IMG/VR virus record: IMGVR_UViG_3300028754_000004 | Coordinates: 1 to 37,286 of that record | DNA from: a virus | Length of the DNA: 37,286 nt | Direction: 5' to 3' (one strand) | In this document: in pieces, positions 2,131 to 21,306 of the stretch | How positions within the stretch are numbered: position 1 is the first letter of the stretch | How the letters are laid out: every line of letters starts with the position of its first letter | Notes under the pieces: model-generated | Seen by the model: the letters and a program-made list of their open reading frames with translations, nothing else | Told to the model about the DNA's origin: nothing | The model's database searches: none | Position numbers and translations under genes: made by a program

Positions 2131-2707
2131 GCGCTTCACCGTTGGCCTTCGCCTTGGCGGTCAGCGTGTAGCCCTCGCCAACCTTCTTGATCAGGTTGTC
2201 CCGTTTGGCTCGGTCCATCACGCCTGACAGTGACTTGGGAGACATGCCGTGGCCACGCAGGATCGACTTCAACTCGGCGACCGGTAGCGGGCCCGAGCCC
2301 AGTGCCAGCCGTAGTAAAGCCGGACCCGATCCCGGCGCCGCCCGGCCGTTTGGACCACGCTGGACATCAGGAGCAGACAGCGCCGTCACCTGATACAGGC
2401 CCTCGGCGTTGCGCTTGAGACCGAGCTTGCCGATGGCATAATAGACGCGATGGTCCTTCATGCCGGTGGCGTTGATCAGGTCGCGCGACTTCATCGGGCC
2501 GTTGGCCAGCGCCTTGAGGATCGCCTCCTCCGGAGAGCCGTTCAACTCGGCTGCCGCCTGCTGCAGCTTCTCCTTGCCGGGCCCCTTGCCACCCTCCCCG
2601 AAATCCAGATCGAGCTTCGCCACGCCGGGCATGTCGTGCAGCTTGCGCAGCACGGTGCCGAGCGCGATCTCTTCTATCTCCAGTCTCACCGAAAAAGTCT
2701 TAGCCAT
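2123..2707 (-). CDS. putative winged-helix DNA-binding protein, 194 aa
   Basis: Two segments look like winged-helix modules: residues about 60-107 (EEAILKALANGPMKSRDLIN, then a HRVYYAIGKLGLK wing) and about 130-185 (LLRLALGSGPLPVAELKSIL, then SGVMDRAKRDNLIKKVGEGY). The N-terminal 40 residues form a separate strand-rich part beginning with FSVRLEIEEIALG. Such proteins sit in phage recombination and replication operons and probably bind DNA, but I cannot name a family. The ATG overlaps the stop of the RecE-like gene (TAATG), which implies coupled translation. Confidence 0.65.
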   Translation of the reverse strand: MAKTFSVRLEIEEIALGTVLRKLHDMPGVAKLDLDFGEGGKGPGKEKLQQAAAELNGSPEEAILKALANGPMKSRDLINATGMKDHRVYYAIGKLGLKRNAEGLYQVTALSAPDVQRGPNGRAAPGSGPALLRLALGSGPLPVAELKSILRGHGMSPKSLSGVMDRAKRDNLIKKVGEGYTLTAKAKANGEAHG

Positions 2708-3642
2708 TATACCAATCCTTCATGCGTCAATCTCGCCATGATGCGCTCGCGTTTGTCTTTGCCCATGCCCAGCGGCTGCAGCGGGTTGTCCTCGCCCGGC
2801 CCCGGCCAGTGTCCGGCCTTGATGCTCGCGCTGATCCTGCGCAGGCTGTCGCGGTTTTGCTGGCGGCCCAGCCCGAGATCAACGTCTGTCAGCGGCGCCA
2901 TGCGCGCGCAGTACGGCGCCTTGGTCTCGACAAACATGCACATGAAGCCGTCAAACGGCTGGCCGAGTCCTTCGCAGACTTCGGCGATCAGCGCAGCCTG
3001 TTGATTGTAGCCATAGGTGTGGATGCTGTTCTGCAGCGCGACCGTTGTCACGTCGGCAGCGGTCTTCAGGTCTACGAACTCGGGACCGTCGGACGGGACC
3101 ACATCGGGCCTGACTTTTAACCAAAGGTTGCTTTCTTGGTCCCAGAAGAAGCCAGACGTTTCGACATGGCCACGCAGCAAGCCATCCTTGACCAGCGCCA
3201 AGATGCGCAGCGACTCGGCCATCTTGACGATAGCGTTCAGTATCTTGACCGTGACGATGGTGAAGCCCTTGGCCTCATGAAACGCGACCCACTCCTTGCA
3301 GTAGTCGGCGCCCATGTGCCACTTCTTCATTTCGCCCTTCGGGCCCGGATATTCTTCGGGCTGCGCCGCATACTTCTGACGGAAGTTTGCTTCGCCGAGC
3401 AGGAGATAATGCGCGCAGCCGCCAAGCAGCATGGCGTTGGTGACCTCGCGCTCCTCGCGCTGCGGATTCTCGGCCCAGAACGCAAACATCTTCGCGGGCG
3501 AGTGGCTCCAGCACGTGCGCAAATCAGTGCTCGACACCGACGGGCCAGAGCACATTCCGGCGCTGTGATAGCGCTCAATGGGGATGTCGCTGACCCAACC
3601 GTTCTCTGTGATTGGCTTGCCATCCCATTTTCTGACTTCCAC
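2707..3642 (-). CDS. RecE-like PD-(D/E)XK exonuclease (DUF3799 type), 311 aa
   Basis: The protein shows the core of exodeoxyribonuclease VIII C-terminal domains: a GGCAHYLLL helix with H78, the motif E161 (HVETSGFFWD), D180 in LKVRPDVVP and D191-L-K193 in FVDLKTAADV. These are the usual metal ligands and the lysine of a PD-(D/E)XK fold. The enzyme should resect double-stranded ends 5' to 3' and hand single strands to the RecT protein of the same operon. The start is GTG at 3640-3642 behind AAAAAAGGAGCAAAAAA. The gene lies directly downstream, on the minus strand, of a strong hairpin and the repeat array. Confidence 0.85.
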   Translation of the reverse strand: MEVRKWDGKPITENGWVSDIPIERYHSAGMCSGPSVSSTDLRTCWSHSPAKMFAFWAENPQREEREVTNAMLLGGCAHYLLLGEANFRQKYAAQPEEYPGPKGEMKKWHMGADYCKEWVAFHEAKGFTIVTVKILNAIVKMAESLRILALVKDGLLRGHVETSGFFWDQESNLWLKVRPDVVPSDGPEFVDLKTAADVTTVALQNSIHTYGYNQQAALIAEVCEGLGQPFDGFMCMFVETKAPYCARMAPLTDVDLGLGRQQNRDSLRRISASIKAGHWPGPGEDNPLQPLGMGKDKRERIMARLTHEGLV

Positions 3643-3667: not shown

Positions 3668-3693
3668 GGGGGTGAGCAACAGCGCTCACCCCC
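3668..3693. other. 10-bp perfect hairpin at the edge of the repeat array
   Basis: GGGGGTGAGC (3668-3677), loop AACAGC, GCTCACCCCC (3684-3693). The stem is perfect. Neither strand has a clean T-run after it, so a classical intrinsic terminator is unlikely. It separates the repeat array from the ribosome-binding site of the RecE-like gene. A comparable hairpin precedes the second copy of the element at 33723-33750. Confidence 0.7.
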
Positions 3694-3699
3694 GATTAG

Positions 3700-4546
3700 C
3701 CTGCCTTGACCAGCACCACCCCGCCTCGCCGAAAAACGCCTCGACTAGATCGGACTGGACGGACCTTGCCTGCCTTGCCTTGGCACTCCAGACTAAGCCT
3801 CGCAACCGCCCGGCACGGACTAGCCGCGCATTGCGTCGCCACGCCTTGCCTGCCTTGCCTCGCCAGCCTCCCGACTAGCAATGCCTGAACTGACATCGCC
3901 ACTCCGAGACCAGCCTTGCCAAGCCTGCCTTGCCATGGCTTGCAGTAACGCGACCAACCTAACCCAGATCAGCCGCGCCCCGCCGTGCCTGCCTTGCAGA
4001 GACCAGACGCGCATTGCCTTGCCTGACCAGAACACGACATGACACTCCCGACTCTGCCGCACCCAGCCCGGCCATGCCTGCCTTACACCGACGTGCCGGA
4101 CACCGCCTTGCCGTAGAGTGCCAAGCCACGCCTGCCTTGCCTTGCCTTGCCTCGCCGCAACAGACCAAGCCTCGCCTGAACCTGACTGACCTAGCCACGT
4201 CGCGCCGCGCCACGCCTGCCTTGCCTTAGCCCTGCAGCGCTTTGCGATGCGAAGCCTGAACCAGACACGCCGTGCCTGCCTTGCCGTGCGCCGACTTACA
4301 ACGCCATCGCCGCTCCGGGCCTTGACCGGACAAGCCATGCCTGCCTTGCCACGCGCGGACCTGCCTGACCGAGTCGAGTCATACAATGCCACGCCTCGCC
4401 TGCCTTGCCTTGCCTTGCTCGGCCTCGCCATGCCCCGACTTGCGCAGCCGGGCCTTGCCGTGCCTCGCCTGCCTTGCCATGCCTGACTACGGCCCCGACA
4501 CGCCAAACCAGAACGAGCCATGACCTGCCTTGCCAATAGTCTTAAC
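3700..4546. repeat. interspersed repeat array with an 11-bp core (13 copies), non-coding
   Basis: An 847-bp gene-free stretch, strongly C-rich on the plus strand. The core CCTGCCTTGCC starts at 3769, 3849, 3924, 4131, 4215, 4275, 4340, 4399, 4468 and 4524, with variants at 3700 (ends GAC), 3988 (ends GCA) and 4077 (ends ACA). Spacing is 54-89 bases, mean about 69. Most cores follow a GCC-A/G/T-T/C-G hexamer and many run on into CTTGCCTTGCC. Unit interiors differ but share GACCAG, GACTAG and GCCTGA(A/C) words. The left border is TGCCTTGACCAGCACCACC (3702-3720) and the right border CCTTGCCAATAGTCTTAAC (4528-4546); both recur at 33.75-33.83 kb. The minus strand carries repeated GGCAAGGCAGG, with enough paired Gs for two-tier quadruplexes. 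Function is unknown. Confidence 0.9.
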
Positions 4547-5087: not shown

Positions 5088-5873
5088 TTACTCCGCTGCT
5101 TCCAGAATGTCGTCTTCCTCACGCTTCGGCAGCGGCCCCTTACCCGCCGCGAATTTTTCCCAAGCCTCACCCTCGGCGAGGTTGGCCATGCGGAACGCGC
5201 CAAACATGCCACGTTTTTCGTTGCGCCATTCGCCAATGCCCACCCCAGTGCCAGACTCGTTGATGAGGAAGCCAAGCTGCTGACCGTTGAGCACCGCGCT
5301 ATTGAACTTGCCGGTGATTCTGACCGCCCAGTGCGTGAACTGTCCGCGATAGGCGAGCGATGCCTTCTTGTTCAGGCCAGCACCGACGCGAACCATGTCC
5401 TCGCGCATCTCCGGATCGCCGGAGTAGATGCGCACCAAGGGCATGTCACAAATCGCACCAGCGAGCGCTGGCCTGACGCGAACCAAATTTGCGTCGAGAT
5501 AGAGTGCGCTCATCACGGTCGTGCGTGGCACGCCCTTGTCCTTGTGCGCGGCAGACAGAATCGCGTTCTTGATTCCGGTGACCGGGAAACCATAGATCGG
5601 TTTGCCTTTGACGTGGCCCATCTCATAGAGCGAGTTCACGAAGTCATCATGCGGATCGCGGGCTTCCTTGCCGCCCTTGGTACCCTTGACCTGCTTCTGC
5701 AGCATCTCCCGCTTGGCCTTCTCGGACCATGCGTGCGTGATCAGCGGCGTACCGCCAACCAGCCAGATGCGGAAATGCTGGTAGGCCACCTCGGTGGACA
5801 TCAACTCGGCGAGGTTGATCACCCCCTTTGTTGTGATGGGGGCGGGCTTCTCGGTCTTCTTCTTCACTGCCAT
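5088..5873 (-). CDS. conserved early phage protein of unknown function, 261 aa
   Basis: The protein resembles a widespread phage and prophage early protein with the landmarks GGTPLITHAWSEKAKREML, a GFPVTGIKNAILSAA helix, a central EMREDMVRVG and a C-terminal GVGIGEWRNEKRGMFGAF. Members are usually found beside recombination or replication genes, but I know of no assigned activity. The start is ATG at 5871-5873 with AAAGGAGCAAGAGACCAA upstream; an open 16-codon extension lacks such a site. It is the first gene of the left minus-strand operon, next to the divergent promoter region. Confidence 0.75.
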   Translation of the reverse strand: MAVKKKTEKPAPITTKGVINLAELMSTEVAYQHFRIWLVGGTPLITHAWSEKAKREMLQKQVKGTKGGKEARDPHDDFVNSLYEMGHVKGKPIYGFPVTGIKNAILSAAHKDKGVPRTTVMSALYLDANLVRVRPALAGAICDMPLVRIYSGDPEMREDMVRVGAGLNKKASLAYRGQFTHWAVRITGKFNSAVLNGQQLGFLINESGTGVGIGEWRNEKRGMFGAFRMANLAEGEAWEKFAAGKGPLPKREEDDILEAAE

Positions 5874-11268: not shown

Positions 11269-12852
11269 ATGAAGACATTGAGAGACGACCAGCAAGATGC
11301 GCTGGAGGCGTTACGCGACGCGGTCAAGGAGGGGCGCCGTCGCATCTGCATGCAGGCCTCAACCGGCTTCGGCAAGACGGTGCTGGCTGCCGCACTGGTG
11401 AACAGCGCATTGCAACGCAAGAAGCGTGTGCTGTTCACGGTGCCAGCGCTCGACCTGATCGACCAGACCATGGCGATGTTCGCCAGCCAAGGCATCACCG
11501 AGGTCGGCGTGATCCAAGCCGACAACCCGAATTACGATTGGGTGCAGCCGGTCCAGATCGCTAGTGTACAAACACTGATGAAGCGGCAGATTCCAAAGGC
11601 CGACGTGGTGCTGATCGACGAGTGCCACATCTGGTTCAAGTTTTACGAGCGCTGGGTAGGCACCAAGGATTTCTGGAAGCCGGAATGGGCCAACGTGCCG
11701 TTCATCGGTCTCTCCGCGACGCCGTGGACCAAGGGGCTCGGTGACTGGTTCGACCACTTCCATAAGGCCTCGACCACGCAAGGCATGATCGACGCCGGGC
11801 ACCTGTCGCCGTTCCGGGTCTATGCGCCGACGCACCCTGACCTGTCAGGCATCAAGATGACGGCAGGCGACTACAACGAGAAGCAATTGGCCGCGCGCAT
11901 GAACACCTCGCGGCTGACCGGTGACGCGGTGCAGACGTGGCTGCAGCTGGGCGAGGGACGGCCGACGCTGTGCTATGGCGTTGACCGGCTGCATGCCAAG
12001 GCACTGCAGCAACAGTTCATCGCTGCCGGGGTGAAGTGCGGCTATCAGGACGGCGACACGCCAGACGCCAGCAAATGGCGCAAGCTGAAGGACAAGGACG
12101 GCATCATCATCGGTCGCGAGTTGGTCGAGGGCCGCAAGGCGGTCAGGGAGAAATTCCACAACGGTGAATATCAGGTGGTGTGCAACGTCGGCACACTGAC
12201 CACCGGCATTGACTGGGATGTGCGCTGCATCGTGATGTGCAGGCCAACGCGCTCCGACATGTTGTTCACCCAGATCATCGGGCGCGGCCTGCGCAATGCT
12301 CCGGGCAAGGACGACTGCCTGATCCTCGATCACAGCGACAACCACATGCGGCTCGGCTTCGTGACCGACATTGATGAGAGTTACACCGGGCTGCGCAAGG
12401 GCAAGACACCGGAGCACGAGAACCGCACCGAGGGCATCCGGCTGCCCAAGGAATGCCCGAAGTGCGCCTACCTGAAGCCACCGAAGATGGCGCAGTGTCC
12501 GGGCTGCGGCTTCGTGGCGCAGGCGGTCAGCAAGATCAAGCCGGACGCTGGCGAGCTTCGCGCGCTGAAGCCGCCGCCGAAGCCGAAGCCGGTGCCGCCG
12601 GTTCTTTGGAGCATGGAGGAGAAACGCATCTTCCTTGCCGAGCTACAGTTCTACGGGCGCCGACAGGGCTATCAGAAGGGCTGGGCCTCGAACCAGTACC
12701 GCGAGCGCTTCGGGGTTTGGCCAGCGGTGGGCGAGGTCATTCCGCTGCCGCCATCGCCCGATACGTTGAGCTGGATCAAGTCTCGGCAGATTGCATACGC
12801 CAAAGCCAAAGCGAAGGAGAATGTGAATTGGACCAGTCAGTGGAGCCGATAG
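11269..12852 (+). CDS. SF2 DEAD/DEAH-type helicase with zinc ribbon, 527 aa
   Basis: Motif I ASTGFGKT (30-37), motif II DECH (117-120), motif III SAT (149-151) and motif VI QIIGRGLR (335-342) identify a superfamily 2 ATPase of the UvsW/ResIII kind. A zinc ribbon follows (C396, C399, C410, C413). The C-terminal 110 residues contain a proline/lysine linker and a region that starts at WSMEEKRIFLAELQFYG. Such phage helicases act in replication, branch migration or recombination. ATG at 11269 has AAAAAAAGGAGCAAAACG before it. The next gene starts inside its last codons. Confidence 0.9.
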   Translation: MKTLRDDQQDALEALRDAVKEGRRRICMQASTGFGKTVLAAALVNSALQRKKRVLFTVPALDLIDQTMAMFASQGITEVGVIQADNPNYDWVQPVQIASVQTLMKRQIPKADVVLIDECHIWFKFYERWVGTKDFWKPEWANVPFIGLSATPWTKGLGDWFDHFHKASTTQGMIDAGHLSPFRVYAPTHPDLSGIKMTAGDYNEKQLAARMNTSRLTGDAVQTWLQLGEGRPTLCYGVDRLHAKALQQQFIAAGVKCGYQDGDTPDASKWRKLKDKDGIIIGRELVEGRKAVREKFHNGEYQVVCNVGTLTTGIDWDVRCIVMCRPTRSDMLFTQIIGRGLRNAPGKDDCLILDHSDNHMRLGFVTDIDESYTGLRKGKTPEHENRTEGIRLPKECPKCAYLKPPKMAQCPGCGFVAQAVSKIKPDAGELRALKPPPKPKPVPPVLWSMEEKRIFLAELQFYGRRQGYQKGWASNQYRERFGVWPAVGEVIPLPPSPDTLSWIKSRQIAYAKAKAKENVNWTSQWSR

Positions 12853-18838: not shown

Positions 18839-20350
18839 TCAGTGAACGCCAACGTCGATGCAGCGTGCGCCCCACGGGGCGGTCTCCATCAGGCGCCTGA
18901 CGTTCTGCGGGTAGCCGTGCACGGCGAACAGCACCGGGCACTGCGGTTCGTCACCGCACGACTTGTAGAATTCCAAGTCGGTGAAGCAGATGATCAGCGA
19001 GGCGTCATCGTGCTCGGTTGCCACGTAGTCGAACAGCGGCGCCATGTCGGTGCCGCCACCGCCTCGGGGGTCGAACTCGATTTCGTCGCCGCTGTTGTAC
19101 TCATCCACGCGAGTAACCCGCGTGTCGCCATAGATCGCGATGACCTGATCGACCACGCCGTCATCGAGCAGCGCCTGAGCTTCATCGTTGACGAGGGCCA
19201 GCGCGACTTGGTCGCACGAGCCCGAGGTGTCGATCAGGAAGCATGCCTTGTTGACGCCGTCCTTCTGGGTGGACGGCAGGATCAGGCCGCGACCCATGAA
19301 GCGCCGGTTCGGTCTTGACCAAGTCTCGACCCTGAGCGCGCCCTGCTCCGCGAATTCGCGAAGCTCATCCCGCCAATCGCGCGGCGGTGAATTGGCGCGC
19401 TCGATGTCGCGGGAGACGTAGCCGGGCAGCTGGCCAGCGGCCTTCGCCATCGACACCGCCTGCCGGACCTTGCGCTCCCAGTCGCTGTCCTGTTCGGCGA
19501 TCTCGTTGGCATCGCCAACCGAGTCCAGCACCTGACCGCACTGGCCGGGATCGCCGGAGGCTGCCGGATCGGGCGAACCGGATTGCTCCGGCTCGCCTTC
19601 ACCGTCGGCCTCGCCTGCCTCGCCGAGCCGTGGCTCGCCAGTGCATGCCAAGCCACGCCGCGCCTTGCCATCAGCACCGTTGCCGGTGCCGTCGCCGGGT
19701 TCGGTGCCCGGTTCATCACCGGACGCCTCGCCAGCCTCGTTGCCAGCCTCGCCGGGTGAGTTCCCGGCGCCGGGGGCATCTTCCTGCCCCTCATCGCCTT
19801 CGCCCTCACCAGCGGCCTCGCCAGCGGTTCCATCGTCGCCCTGTCCGGGCTCATCCGGGTTCTGTCCGGGTTCGTCCGGGTTCTGATCCGGGTTGGTGTC
19901 GTCGCCGGGCTGCTCGGGCTCGGGTTGCGGCTGCCGCGAATCCAGTTCGCGCGATCTATAAATATCCTCGGCTGACATGCCGCGATACTTCGGGTCGATC
20001 AGCGCGCCCTTCGGCAACGTGAAGCCCTCGTCGATCAGGTCGATGTTGATCGCGTAGTCGCAGGCGATATTCCAAAGCTCGGGATCGCGCCCGTTGCGAC
20101 GCGTGCCGTGATGGCGCGCATCGTGTTCTGATTCGTGCACCTGCACGCCGAGCACTTCGTCCTCGGTCAGTTCAGAGATGAACTTCGGATTCCAGAAGTG
20201 CTGCTTGCCGTTGGTGGCGGCGGTCGGAAACTTTTCCGAGATCACCGGCTCGACGTTGGCGACCAGCACGCCGTAGAATTTGCGCTCCAGTGATAACCGG
20301 ACGCGCGCCTTCTCGATGCGTGACATCGCTTTGGTGTTGAGGTCTGACAT
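18839..20350 (-). CDS. VWA-like / DUF2201 putative metallopeptidase, 503 aa
   Basis: Two domains flank a long acidic low-complexity linker. Residues 1-150 carry H72-E-S-E-H76 (VQVHESEHDARHH), an HExxH zinc motif typical of DUF2201 N-terminal domains. Residues about 345-503 are a VWA-like domain with MIDAS-type residues D374-T-S-G-S (FLIDTSGSCDQ), T434 in GGGGTDM and D458 in CFTDLE. The linker (about 155-330) is rich in Pro, Glu, Gly and Asp. A stretch of it (ARRGLACTGEPRLGEAGEA) matches the 3.7-kb repeat array in DNA. ATG at 20348-20350 follows AAAGGAGCAAACC. Together with the AAA+ ATPase and DUF3150 protein it forms a MoxR/CobS-VWA type module, probably a chaperone or remodelling machine. 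Confidence 0.8.
   Translation of the reverse strand: MSDLNTKAMSRIEKARVRLSLERKFYGVLVANVEPVISEKFPTAATNGKQHFWNPKFISELTEDEVLGVQVHESEHDARHHGTRRNGRDPELWNIACDYAINIDLIDEGFTLPKGALIDPKYRGMSAEDIYRSRELDSRQPQPEPEQPGDDTNPDQNPDEPGQNPDEPGQGDDGTAGEAAGEGEGDEGQEDAPGAGNSPGEAGNEAGEASGDEPGTEPGDGTGNGADGKARRGLACTGEPRLGEAGEADGEGEPEQSGSPDPAASGDPGQCGQVLDSVGDANEIAEQDSDWERKVRQAVSMAKAAGQLPGYVSRDIERANSPPRDWRDELREFAEQGALRVETWSRPNRRFMGRGLILPSTQKDGVNKACFLIDTSGSCDQVALALVNDEAQALLDDGVVDQVIAIYGDTRVTRVDEYNSGDEIEFDPRGGGGTDMAPLFDYVATEHDDASLIICFTDLEFYKSCGDEPQCPVLFAVHGYPQNVRRLMETAPWGARCIDVGVH
19590..19665. repeat. repeat-array-like tract inside the VWA coding sequence
   Basis: The plus strand reads GCCTCGCCTGCCTCGCC near 19608 and TGCCAAGCCACGCC at 19646-19659 followed by GCGCCTTGCC. 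The 14-mer TGCCAAGCCACGCC is identical to array positions 4119-4132, where it is followed by TGCCTTGCC. In the protein it falls in the disordered linker, where insertion would be tolerated. Confidence 0.55.
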
Positions 20351-20375
20351 GGTTTGCTCCTTTGTTGATTGATGG

Positions 20376-20415
20376 TCACTGTGATGCAGCGGGACATGCC
20401 CGCTGCACTCAGTGA
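20376..20415 (-). other. hairpin between DUF3150 and VWA genes
   Basis: TCACTG (20376-20381) and CAGTGA (20410-20415) enclose TGCAGCGGG (20385-20393), loop ACATG, CCCGCTGCA (20399-20407). The inner stem is nine perfect pairs and the outer one six. It starts directly after the DUF3150 stop codon and ends before the ribosome-binding site of the VWA gene. No U-run follows. Confidence 0.65.
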
Positions 20416-21306
20416 TCAGCCGAATAGTCCGGAGACTGCGGCAACGATTTCGTCTGCGGACTTCTGCACGGCTTCGCGGGCGCCGTCGTTTTCGCGCAGG
20501 CTCTTGGCGTCCTCGGTGCAAAGCTCGGCTTTGATCCGCTTGGCGATCTCATCGAGCTTGGCATCGCCCACCAGATTGAAGGCGGGCAACAGATCGGCGA
20601 GTTCGCGAACGTTCTCGACTAGCGAGTCCCTGAACACGCCGCCTAACTCGCCGGGCGCCCGGTTCGAGTAGGCCGTCAGCTTGTTGGCCATGTGGCCAAC
20701 CACCGAGACGATCCGTTCGACCGTGTGCGCCATCGCCTTGTCAACCACCGTGGAGGTGGTGACCTGCAGCTGCGCCCTGATCTCAGCCACCGTGTCATCG
20801 TCCAGCTCGCTGCGGAAGTCGGCAGCGTCGGGGAATGGCAGGATGGTCAGATCAAGATTGAACTTGCTGCGGATGTCATCGGCCGACGGGTAGTCGCCGT
20901 CATTGAACAGGCCGTTCAGCGCCTTCTTGCGCTCCTCGACGAATGCCGGGTAGGCCGCACAGAAGCGGTCGGCGGCATCGTTGAATTCACGCTTCAGGGT
21001 GCGAAACTCATCACTGAATTTCGAGAACAGCGCGTTGGGCAGAATGCGCGGGCCATCGTCGGCCCACGGCTGCGTCATCTTGTAGTGCAGCATGCGCGCC
21101 TTGCTCACCATGCCGGTGAGTTCAGCCAGATGCTCGGAGGCGATGAGCAGCTTGTTGTAGCGCCCGGCGTCGTCGGCCGCGTGATACTTGCGGTTGGTTT
21201 CGTCGGTGACCTTGCGGTCGAGCTTGCGGGCAGTCCACTGCGAGATGTTGACCGAGACCAGAACGGCCTTGCGTGACAACGGCGTGGTGATTTGCATCGA
21301 GTTCAT
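20416..21306 (-). CDS. DUF3150-family protein, 296 aa
   Basis: The protein opens LSRKAVLVSVNISQWTARKL-DRKVTDE, the hallmark start of the DUF3150 family, and continues as an all-helical protein (EFRTLKREFNDAADRF..., VEERKKALNGLF, IRAQLQVTTSTVVDKAM). DUF3150 genes sit beside a CobS/MoxR-like ATPase and a VWA protein in phages and in integrative elements; the activity is unknown. ATG at 21304-21306 follows AAAGGAGCAACACC. It is the middle gene of the triad. Confidence 0.75.
   Translation of the reverse strand: MNSMQITTPLSRKAVLVSVNISQWTARKLDRKVTDETNRKYHAADDAGRYNKLLIASEHLAELTGMVSKARMLHYKMTQPWADDGPRILPNALFSKFSDEFRTLKREFNDAADRFCAAYPAFVEERKKALNGLFNDGDYPSADDIRSKFNLDLTILPFPDAADFRSELDDDTVAEIRAQLQVTTSTVVDKAMAHTVERIVSVVGHMANKLTAYSNRAPGELGGVFRDSLVENVRELADLLPAFNLVGDAKLDEIAKRIKAELCTEDAKSLRENDGAREAVQKSADEIVAAVSGLFG

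Follow-up and report, generated by a model that had tools for sequence, protein, structure and literature searches.

The array and the genes beside it

The window analysed here is the whole 37,286-nucleotide stretch of the IMG/VR virus record IMGVR_UViG_3300028754_000004 (positions 1 to 37,286). Its minus strand carries an array of short repeats that is, with high probability, the guide-RNA array of a phage-encoded VIPR system. Recently described in a preprint, VIPR combines a RAMP protein with guide RNAs of alternating GGY triplets and variable dinucleotides (NN; PMC13142463, 2026). The NN dinucleotides read DNA with one target base skipped each time, often at the codon wobble position, and the systems aim at competing phages and at other VIPR systems (PMC13142463). 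The guide RNAs (vrRNAs) consist of 9-16 YNNGG tandem repeats in which GGY is conserved and NN varies; they are approximately 100 nt long with a 3' tail, are expressed, and co-purify with Vipr (PMC13142463). VIPR loci are minimal, include an accessory vap gene (vap1-6) and fall into seven types (PMC13142463). The virus record carries terminase, portal and RecT, which fits the mainly phage or provirus encoding of VIPR. The locus reads as follows in minus-strand order, with RecT beyond the last feature:

5088 to 5873, minus strand: vipr, encoding a RAMP/Cas7-like protein (phrog_4652; PDB profile match and Foldseek)
4547 to approximately 5083, minus strand, start codon unsettled: putative vap (vipr accessory) gene, phrog_15946 (PHROG match; position beside vipr in relatives)
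3684 to 4536, minus strand: vrRNA-type guide array (pentamer parse far above shuffles; same kind of array adjoining vipr in relatives)
3668 to 3693, minus strand: strong hairpin closing the array, GGGGGUGAGC-GCUGUU-GCUCACCCCC (minimum free energy -23 kcal/mol, z -3.1)
2707 to 3642, minus strand: RecE-like exonuclease (DUF3799, phrog_412; in 1 of 60 relatives), a downstream neighbour of the array and not part of the module

A preliminary description of the repeat, made from the letters alone, reported ten exact and three variant copies of an 11-bp core, CCTGCCTTGCC, spaced 54-89 bases apart. Both the count and the spacing are borne out: the exact copies lie between 3769 and 4534, and of the three variants those at 3700 and 3988 differ from the core by one base and that at 4079 by two. 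Across the window, 18 sites match the core at one mismatch or fewer, against 1.0 expected by chance. The core is real, but it is punctuation rather than the functional unit, and a finer pentamer structure had been missed. Read on the minus strand, the basic unit is the pentamer NN-GGY. The parse yields 172 units, comprising 154 pentamers and 13 units that are one base shorter and act as punctuation. These shorter units are mostly A-GGC following AA-GGC, and the resulting constant element AAGGC-AGGC, corresponding to the 11-bp core, separates approximately 12 guides of roughly 10-17 pentamers each. The parse scored 294, whereas 200 dinucleotide shuffles averaged 10.9 and never exceeded 20.9, and GG dinucleotides return with a five-base period (lags 5, 10, 15 and beyond). 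Among the 172 units, GGC (92) is the commonest triplet, followed by GTC (22), GGT (10) and GTT (7); 76% of the scaffold triplets are GGY or GTY, the second scaffold base often being T. The array is present at 100% identity in two other metagenome contigs, over 6.7 and 11.9 kb, and is thus not the assembly artefact that had been considered. The closing hairpin is a possible 3' end of the array RNA or a terminator. No Rfam family matched the window at gathering score, hence no hammerhead ribozymes.

The identity of the upstream protein was examined by profile and by structure. The sole PDB match of the phrog_4652 family profiles is the Vipr protein of phage SUSP1 (36pp_D; E 3e-8 and 1.2e-11). 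An AlphaFold2 model built from 46 sequences, replacing a poor first model from 12 sequences (predicted local distance difference test, pLDDT, 57), reached a pLDDT of 84 and a predicted template modelling score of 0.79, and its best Foldseek matches are Csm3, type VII Cas7 and Cas7-11 chains. Pfam, NCBIfam and PADLOC gave no match for this protein, and the vap-like protein had only weak PADLOC matches. By profile and predicted fold, the phrog_4652 protein is Vipr, a single small RAMP.

The module in relatives

Searched at the DNA level, 50,697 phage records yielded similar arrays in only 21, all of them from Mycobacterium phages. A phrog_4652 relative is encoded in 32 of the records, including every one of the 21 BLAST-detectable array carriers. 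In phages Saal and Donkeykong, the array lies directly upstream of relatives of both window genes. With the phrog_4652 protein as the only query, further loci were collected from IMG/VR and from bacterial genomes, and 60 were kept as non-redundant. A detectable array is present in 46 of these 60 loci, and a phrog_15946 gene stands beside vipr in 52, giving a minimal locus with an accessory gene. All detected arrays share the vipr strand and nearly always adjoin vipr, while gene order varies among vipr-vap-array, array-vipr-vap and vipr-array-vap. The module is found in phages and prophages of Alphaproteobacteria, Actinobacteria and Firmicutes. RecE and RecT were considered as module parts and rejected, as either was detected near the module in only 1-2 of the 60 relatives within the flanks examined. 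One locus (L033) has a second array at 1446-1921, between recE- and recT-like genes and approximately 4 kb from vipr.

In several of the loci where no array was detected, more degenerate repeats stand at the same place. Strongly degenerate or undetectable arrays occupy this position in eight relatives (L016, L017, L019, L027, L029, L034, L042 and L064), which may reflect either another scaffold consensus or decay. Among mycobacteriophages with near-identical Vipr, the first and last units are largely common and the inner guides are swapped, gained or lost; nearly every parsed scaffold triplet is GGY, whereas NN and entire guides differ. The cluster F mycobacteriophages (L009, L010, L078-L088) have vrRNA-type arrays upstream of vipr, and near-identical phages exchange guides as units. 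In places, such arrays are annotated as hypothetical protein genes (for example, Donkeykong gp48, Gorge gp53 and DRBy19 gp51). Separately, more than 20 AAGGC units follow one another without a mismatch in Salmonella plasmid pSA20021456.1 (L011, 7992-8104). The run, which lies downstream of repA and of a ProQ/FinO-family gene, looks like a plain microsatellite.

Decoded guides and their targets

Guides were decoded by the published 1-nt-skip rule (PMC13142463). A total of 328 guide runs from all arrays was searched against 1.44 Mb of loci, with arrays masked and skips of 0 to 3. With a skip of 1 there were two 9/9 and eight 8/9 matches, whereas shuffled guides reached 8 once and 9 never; the other skips gave no 9/9 match (skips 0 and 2) or one (skip 3). 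In vipr genes alone, three matches at 8-9 NN were found against 0.25 expected at 8 or more, and all three are in frame with the skipped base at the wobble position. A guide of a Mycobacterium szulgai prophage (L077) matches the Saal (L009) vipr gene at 5711-5746 with 10/12 dinucleotides, ten of them consecutive and in frame. An L018 guide matches the vipr gene of L015 (9/10 NN), and an L076 guide matches a vipr gene at 8/11 NN. These matches suggest that arrays of related phages aim at other phages' vipr genes.

Two guides of the window array itself could be read as matching other phages' genes, and the window carries an ortholog of one of these genes:

4467 to 4531, minus strand: guide 1, AA AG AT TC CT TT GT GG CG CA AT, followed by the constant AA-GGC A-GGC; target: a phage DNA helicase gene on its antisense strand (motif CRPTKSDMLF)
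3923 to 3986, minus strand: guide 9, AC GG GC TG TG TA TG GC AC AA AT AA, followed by A-GGC; putative target: a phage terminase large-subunit gene on its antisense strand (motif FMFVAQYQQAPV)
11269 to 12852, plus strand: the phage's own helicase (phrog_16 DNA helicase), ortholog of the guide 1 target

Guide 1 first matched a related phage (L014) at ten consecutive dinucleotides. Its nine-dinucleotide pattern occurs in 45 IMG/VR contigs. Every one of these matches runs antisense to the motif RPTKS(D/E)(M/I)LF and places the skipped base at the wobble position; 44 of the contigs clearly carry the same helicase gene, and one (L122) is doubtful. All 11 dinucleotides match in L098, L099, L103, L106, L112, L125, L129 and others. 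The 45 matches represent one gene family and are not independent evidence; the strength of the assignment lies instead in the 20-22 bases that match, in their phase and in other skips failing. For guides 1 and 9, a skip of 1 gave 22/22 matched bases and skips of 0, 2 and 3 gave at most 17. One-base skipping at wobble positions is common to both guides and to the three vipr-gene matches of relatives. Guide 1 had no match in 398 Hyphomicrobiales genomes; thus its target looks phage-specific and chance matches rare. Guide 9 matches 12/12 NN in L136 and L137, again antisense and in wobble phase. These two are the same AT-rich phage, so the support is weaker than for guide 1.

The IMG/VR scan covered five window guides (1, 2, 8, 9 and 12). 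Guides 8 and 12 had no match at three or fewer mismatches in 50 related records, and guide 7 had none in the 398 Hyphomicrobiales genomes. Search patterns for long units were cut from the 5' side, which may be the wrong end for some; the dinucleotides ahead of AAGGC-AGGC appear, from guides 1 and 9, to matter.

The phage's own helicase is 56-63% identical to the closer target helicases. At its corresponding site (12234), only 7 of the 11 guide 1 dinucleotides and 16 of the 22 bases match, the closest related helicases that share the motif context score 19-22, and the nine-dinucleotide pattern has no site in the window at three or fewer mismatches. Three of the four differing dinucleotides reflect synonymous changes (Leu CTG to TTG, Ser AGC to TCC and Arg CGN to AGG) and the fourth a Lys to Arg change. 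Two of the four are also present in near relatives (L140, L141 and L151). Given these differences, the phage's own helicase would be spared. This apparent self-exemption fits selection against self-targeting, or could be ordinary divergence.

Elsewhere in the window, a short tandem repeat, CTGTCCGGGTT, lies at 19841-19894 inside an HNH endonuclease-like open reading frame (ORF; 18839-20521). The N-terminus of a 1704-aa ORF at 27493-32607 matches a portal protein and its later parts match other families; the ORF looks like a fusion of structural genes.

Comparison with known systems and alternative explanations

The window system resembles the VIPR systems of SUSP1 and Pseudomonas fulva (type II) in its RAMP protein, its minimal locus with a vap-like gene, its tandem NN/GGY guides, the 1-nt skip at wobble positions, and rival-phage targets that include other vipr genes. 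However, the window array is continuous, with approximately 12 guides split only by AAGGC-AGGC; GTC or GTT scaffold triplets are common, no structured tail was seen, and the putative vap-like gene (phrog_15946) is different. Staggered arrays with overlapping vrRNAs have been mentioned (PMC13142463), and the window array may be of this form. Class 1 CRISPR-Cas effectors (Csm3, Cas7 and Cas7-11) share the predicted RAMP fold, and both systems have serial guides in an array. In contrast to CRISPR-Cas, the window array has no identical repeats with unique contiguous spacers, no cas genes were found near, and targeting is through dinucleotides with skips. The continuous pentamers do not fit a CRISPR array, and there were no cas or PADLOC CRISPR matches among the six neighbouring proteins scanned.

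From these observations, we infer a course running from transcription and processing to binding and repression. The minus strand would be transcribed through vipr, the vap-like gene and the array, and the array RNA would give rise to serial guides whose GGY-type triplets make up the scaffold bound by Vipr subunits. The dinucleotides between the triplets would pair with double-stranded DNA, skipping one target base each time, and the Vipr-guide complex would bind genes of competing phages and probably repress them. Several points weigh against assigning the array to a VIPR system. The missing structured 3' tail is a feature of type II vrRNAs, approximately 24% of the scaffold triplets are neither GGY nor GTY, and perturbation of the GGY motif abolished silencing in SUSP1 (PMC13142463). 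Furthermore, targets were found for only two of the five guides scanned in IMG/VR, guides 2, 8 and 12 having no match there, and the guide 9 target phage is AT-rich and may have a different host from the window phage.

The many non-GGY triplets, together with the even more degraded arrays at the same place in several relatives, also raise the prospect of a genuine VIPR array that is decaying or inactive, scaffold drift having disabled most of its guides. This is unlikely, as guides 1 and 9 match their targets perfectly though nearly half of their triplets are non-GGY, and the low-scoring array of L018 still matches a vipr gene 9/9 in frame. A repetitive protein-coding gene is extremely improbable: a 238-aa ORF (3820-4536) spans part of the window array and the arrays of some relatives are annotated as hypothetical genes, but stops occur in all three frames in 23 of 31 distinct strong arrays (relatives and window), and the one-base-shorter units shift the frame throughout. 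The description of the array as non-coding is thus supported.

The preliminary description had also offered a replication origin with iteron-like sites, a protein-binding array, serial G-quadruplexes, a selfish repeat and a non-coding RNA on the minus strand, of which only the last was the right class; the others find no support, since a RAMP protein goes with the array and targets can be read from the array's variable dinucleotides. An iteron origin or a RecE/RecT recombination hotspot, at which G-rich repeats on the transcript strand could also form R-loops, might draw on the adjoining recE and recT and on the strong G/C strand asymmetry. It is nevertheless very improbable, because it is vipr and the vap-like gene, rather than RecE or RecT, that accompany the array, and because iterons are expected to be near-identical, whereas the window dinucleotides vary and match other phages' genes. 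There is scarcely any likelihood that the array is a functionless selfish or slippage-born microsatellite, like the perfect GGCAA repeats of the Salmonella plasmid. The pentamer period and the existence of a pure (AAGGC)n run are in its favour, yet the window units are not copies of one another, their dinucleotides vary and decode to genes, and the array is tied to one protein family across phyla.

Within the VIPR assignment, a more specific proposal is put forward tentatively, as somewhat less probable than its negation. The window system may be a VIPR variant in its own right, in which the scaffold is relaxed to GKY and the guides lack tails and are separated by tetramers. It would aim at conserved motifs of the phage's own gene set in rivals, the phage's own copies being shielded by switches among six-fold-degenerate codons (Leu, Ser and Arg) at guide-read positions.

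The statement that no named family has such a structure was true until April 2026 and is superseded by VIPR (PMC13142463), which has been proposed as an ancestor of class 1 CRISPR. VIPR was described only in 2026, and the window is an independent instance of it, come upon blind in raw sequence. That its guides are readable by the published rule supports this rule beyond the lineages from which it was derived. The window adds decoded natural targets, apparent self-exemption and a relaxed GKY scaffold to what is described for VIPR, and raises the question of how a phage aiming at a conserved gene keeps its own copy from being targeted. If the variant proposal is true, codon switching would be a form of synonymous self-immunity against a code that ignores wobble changes.
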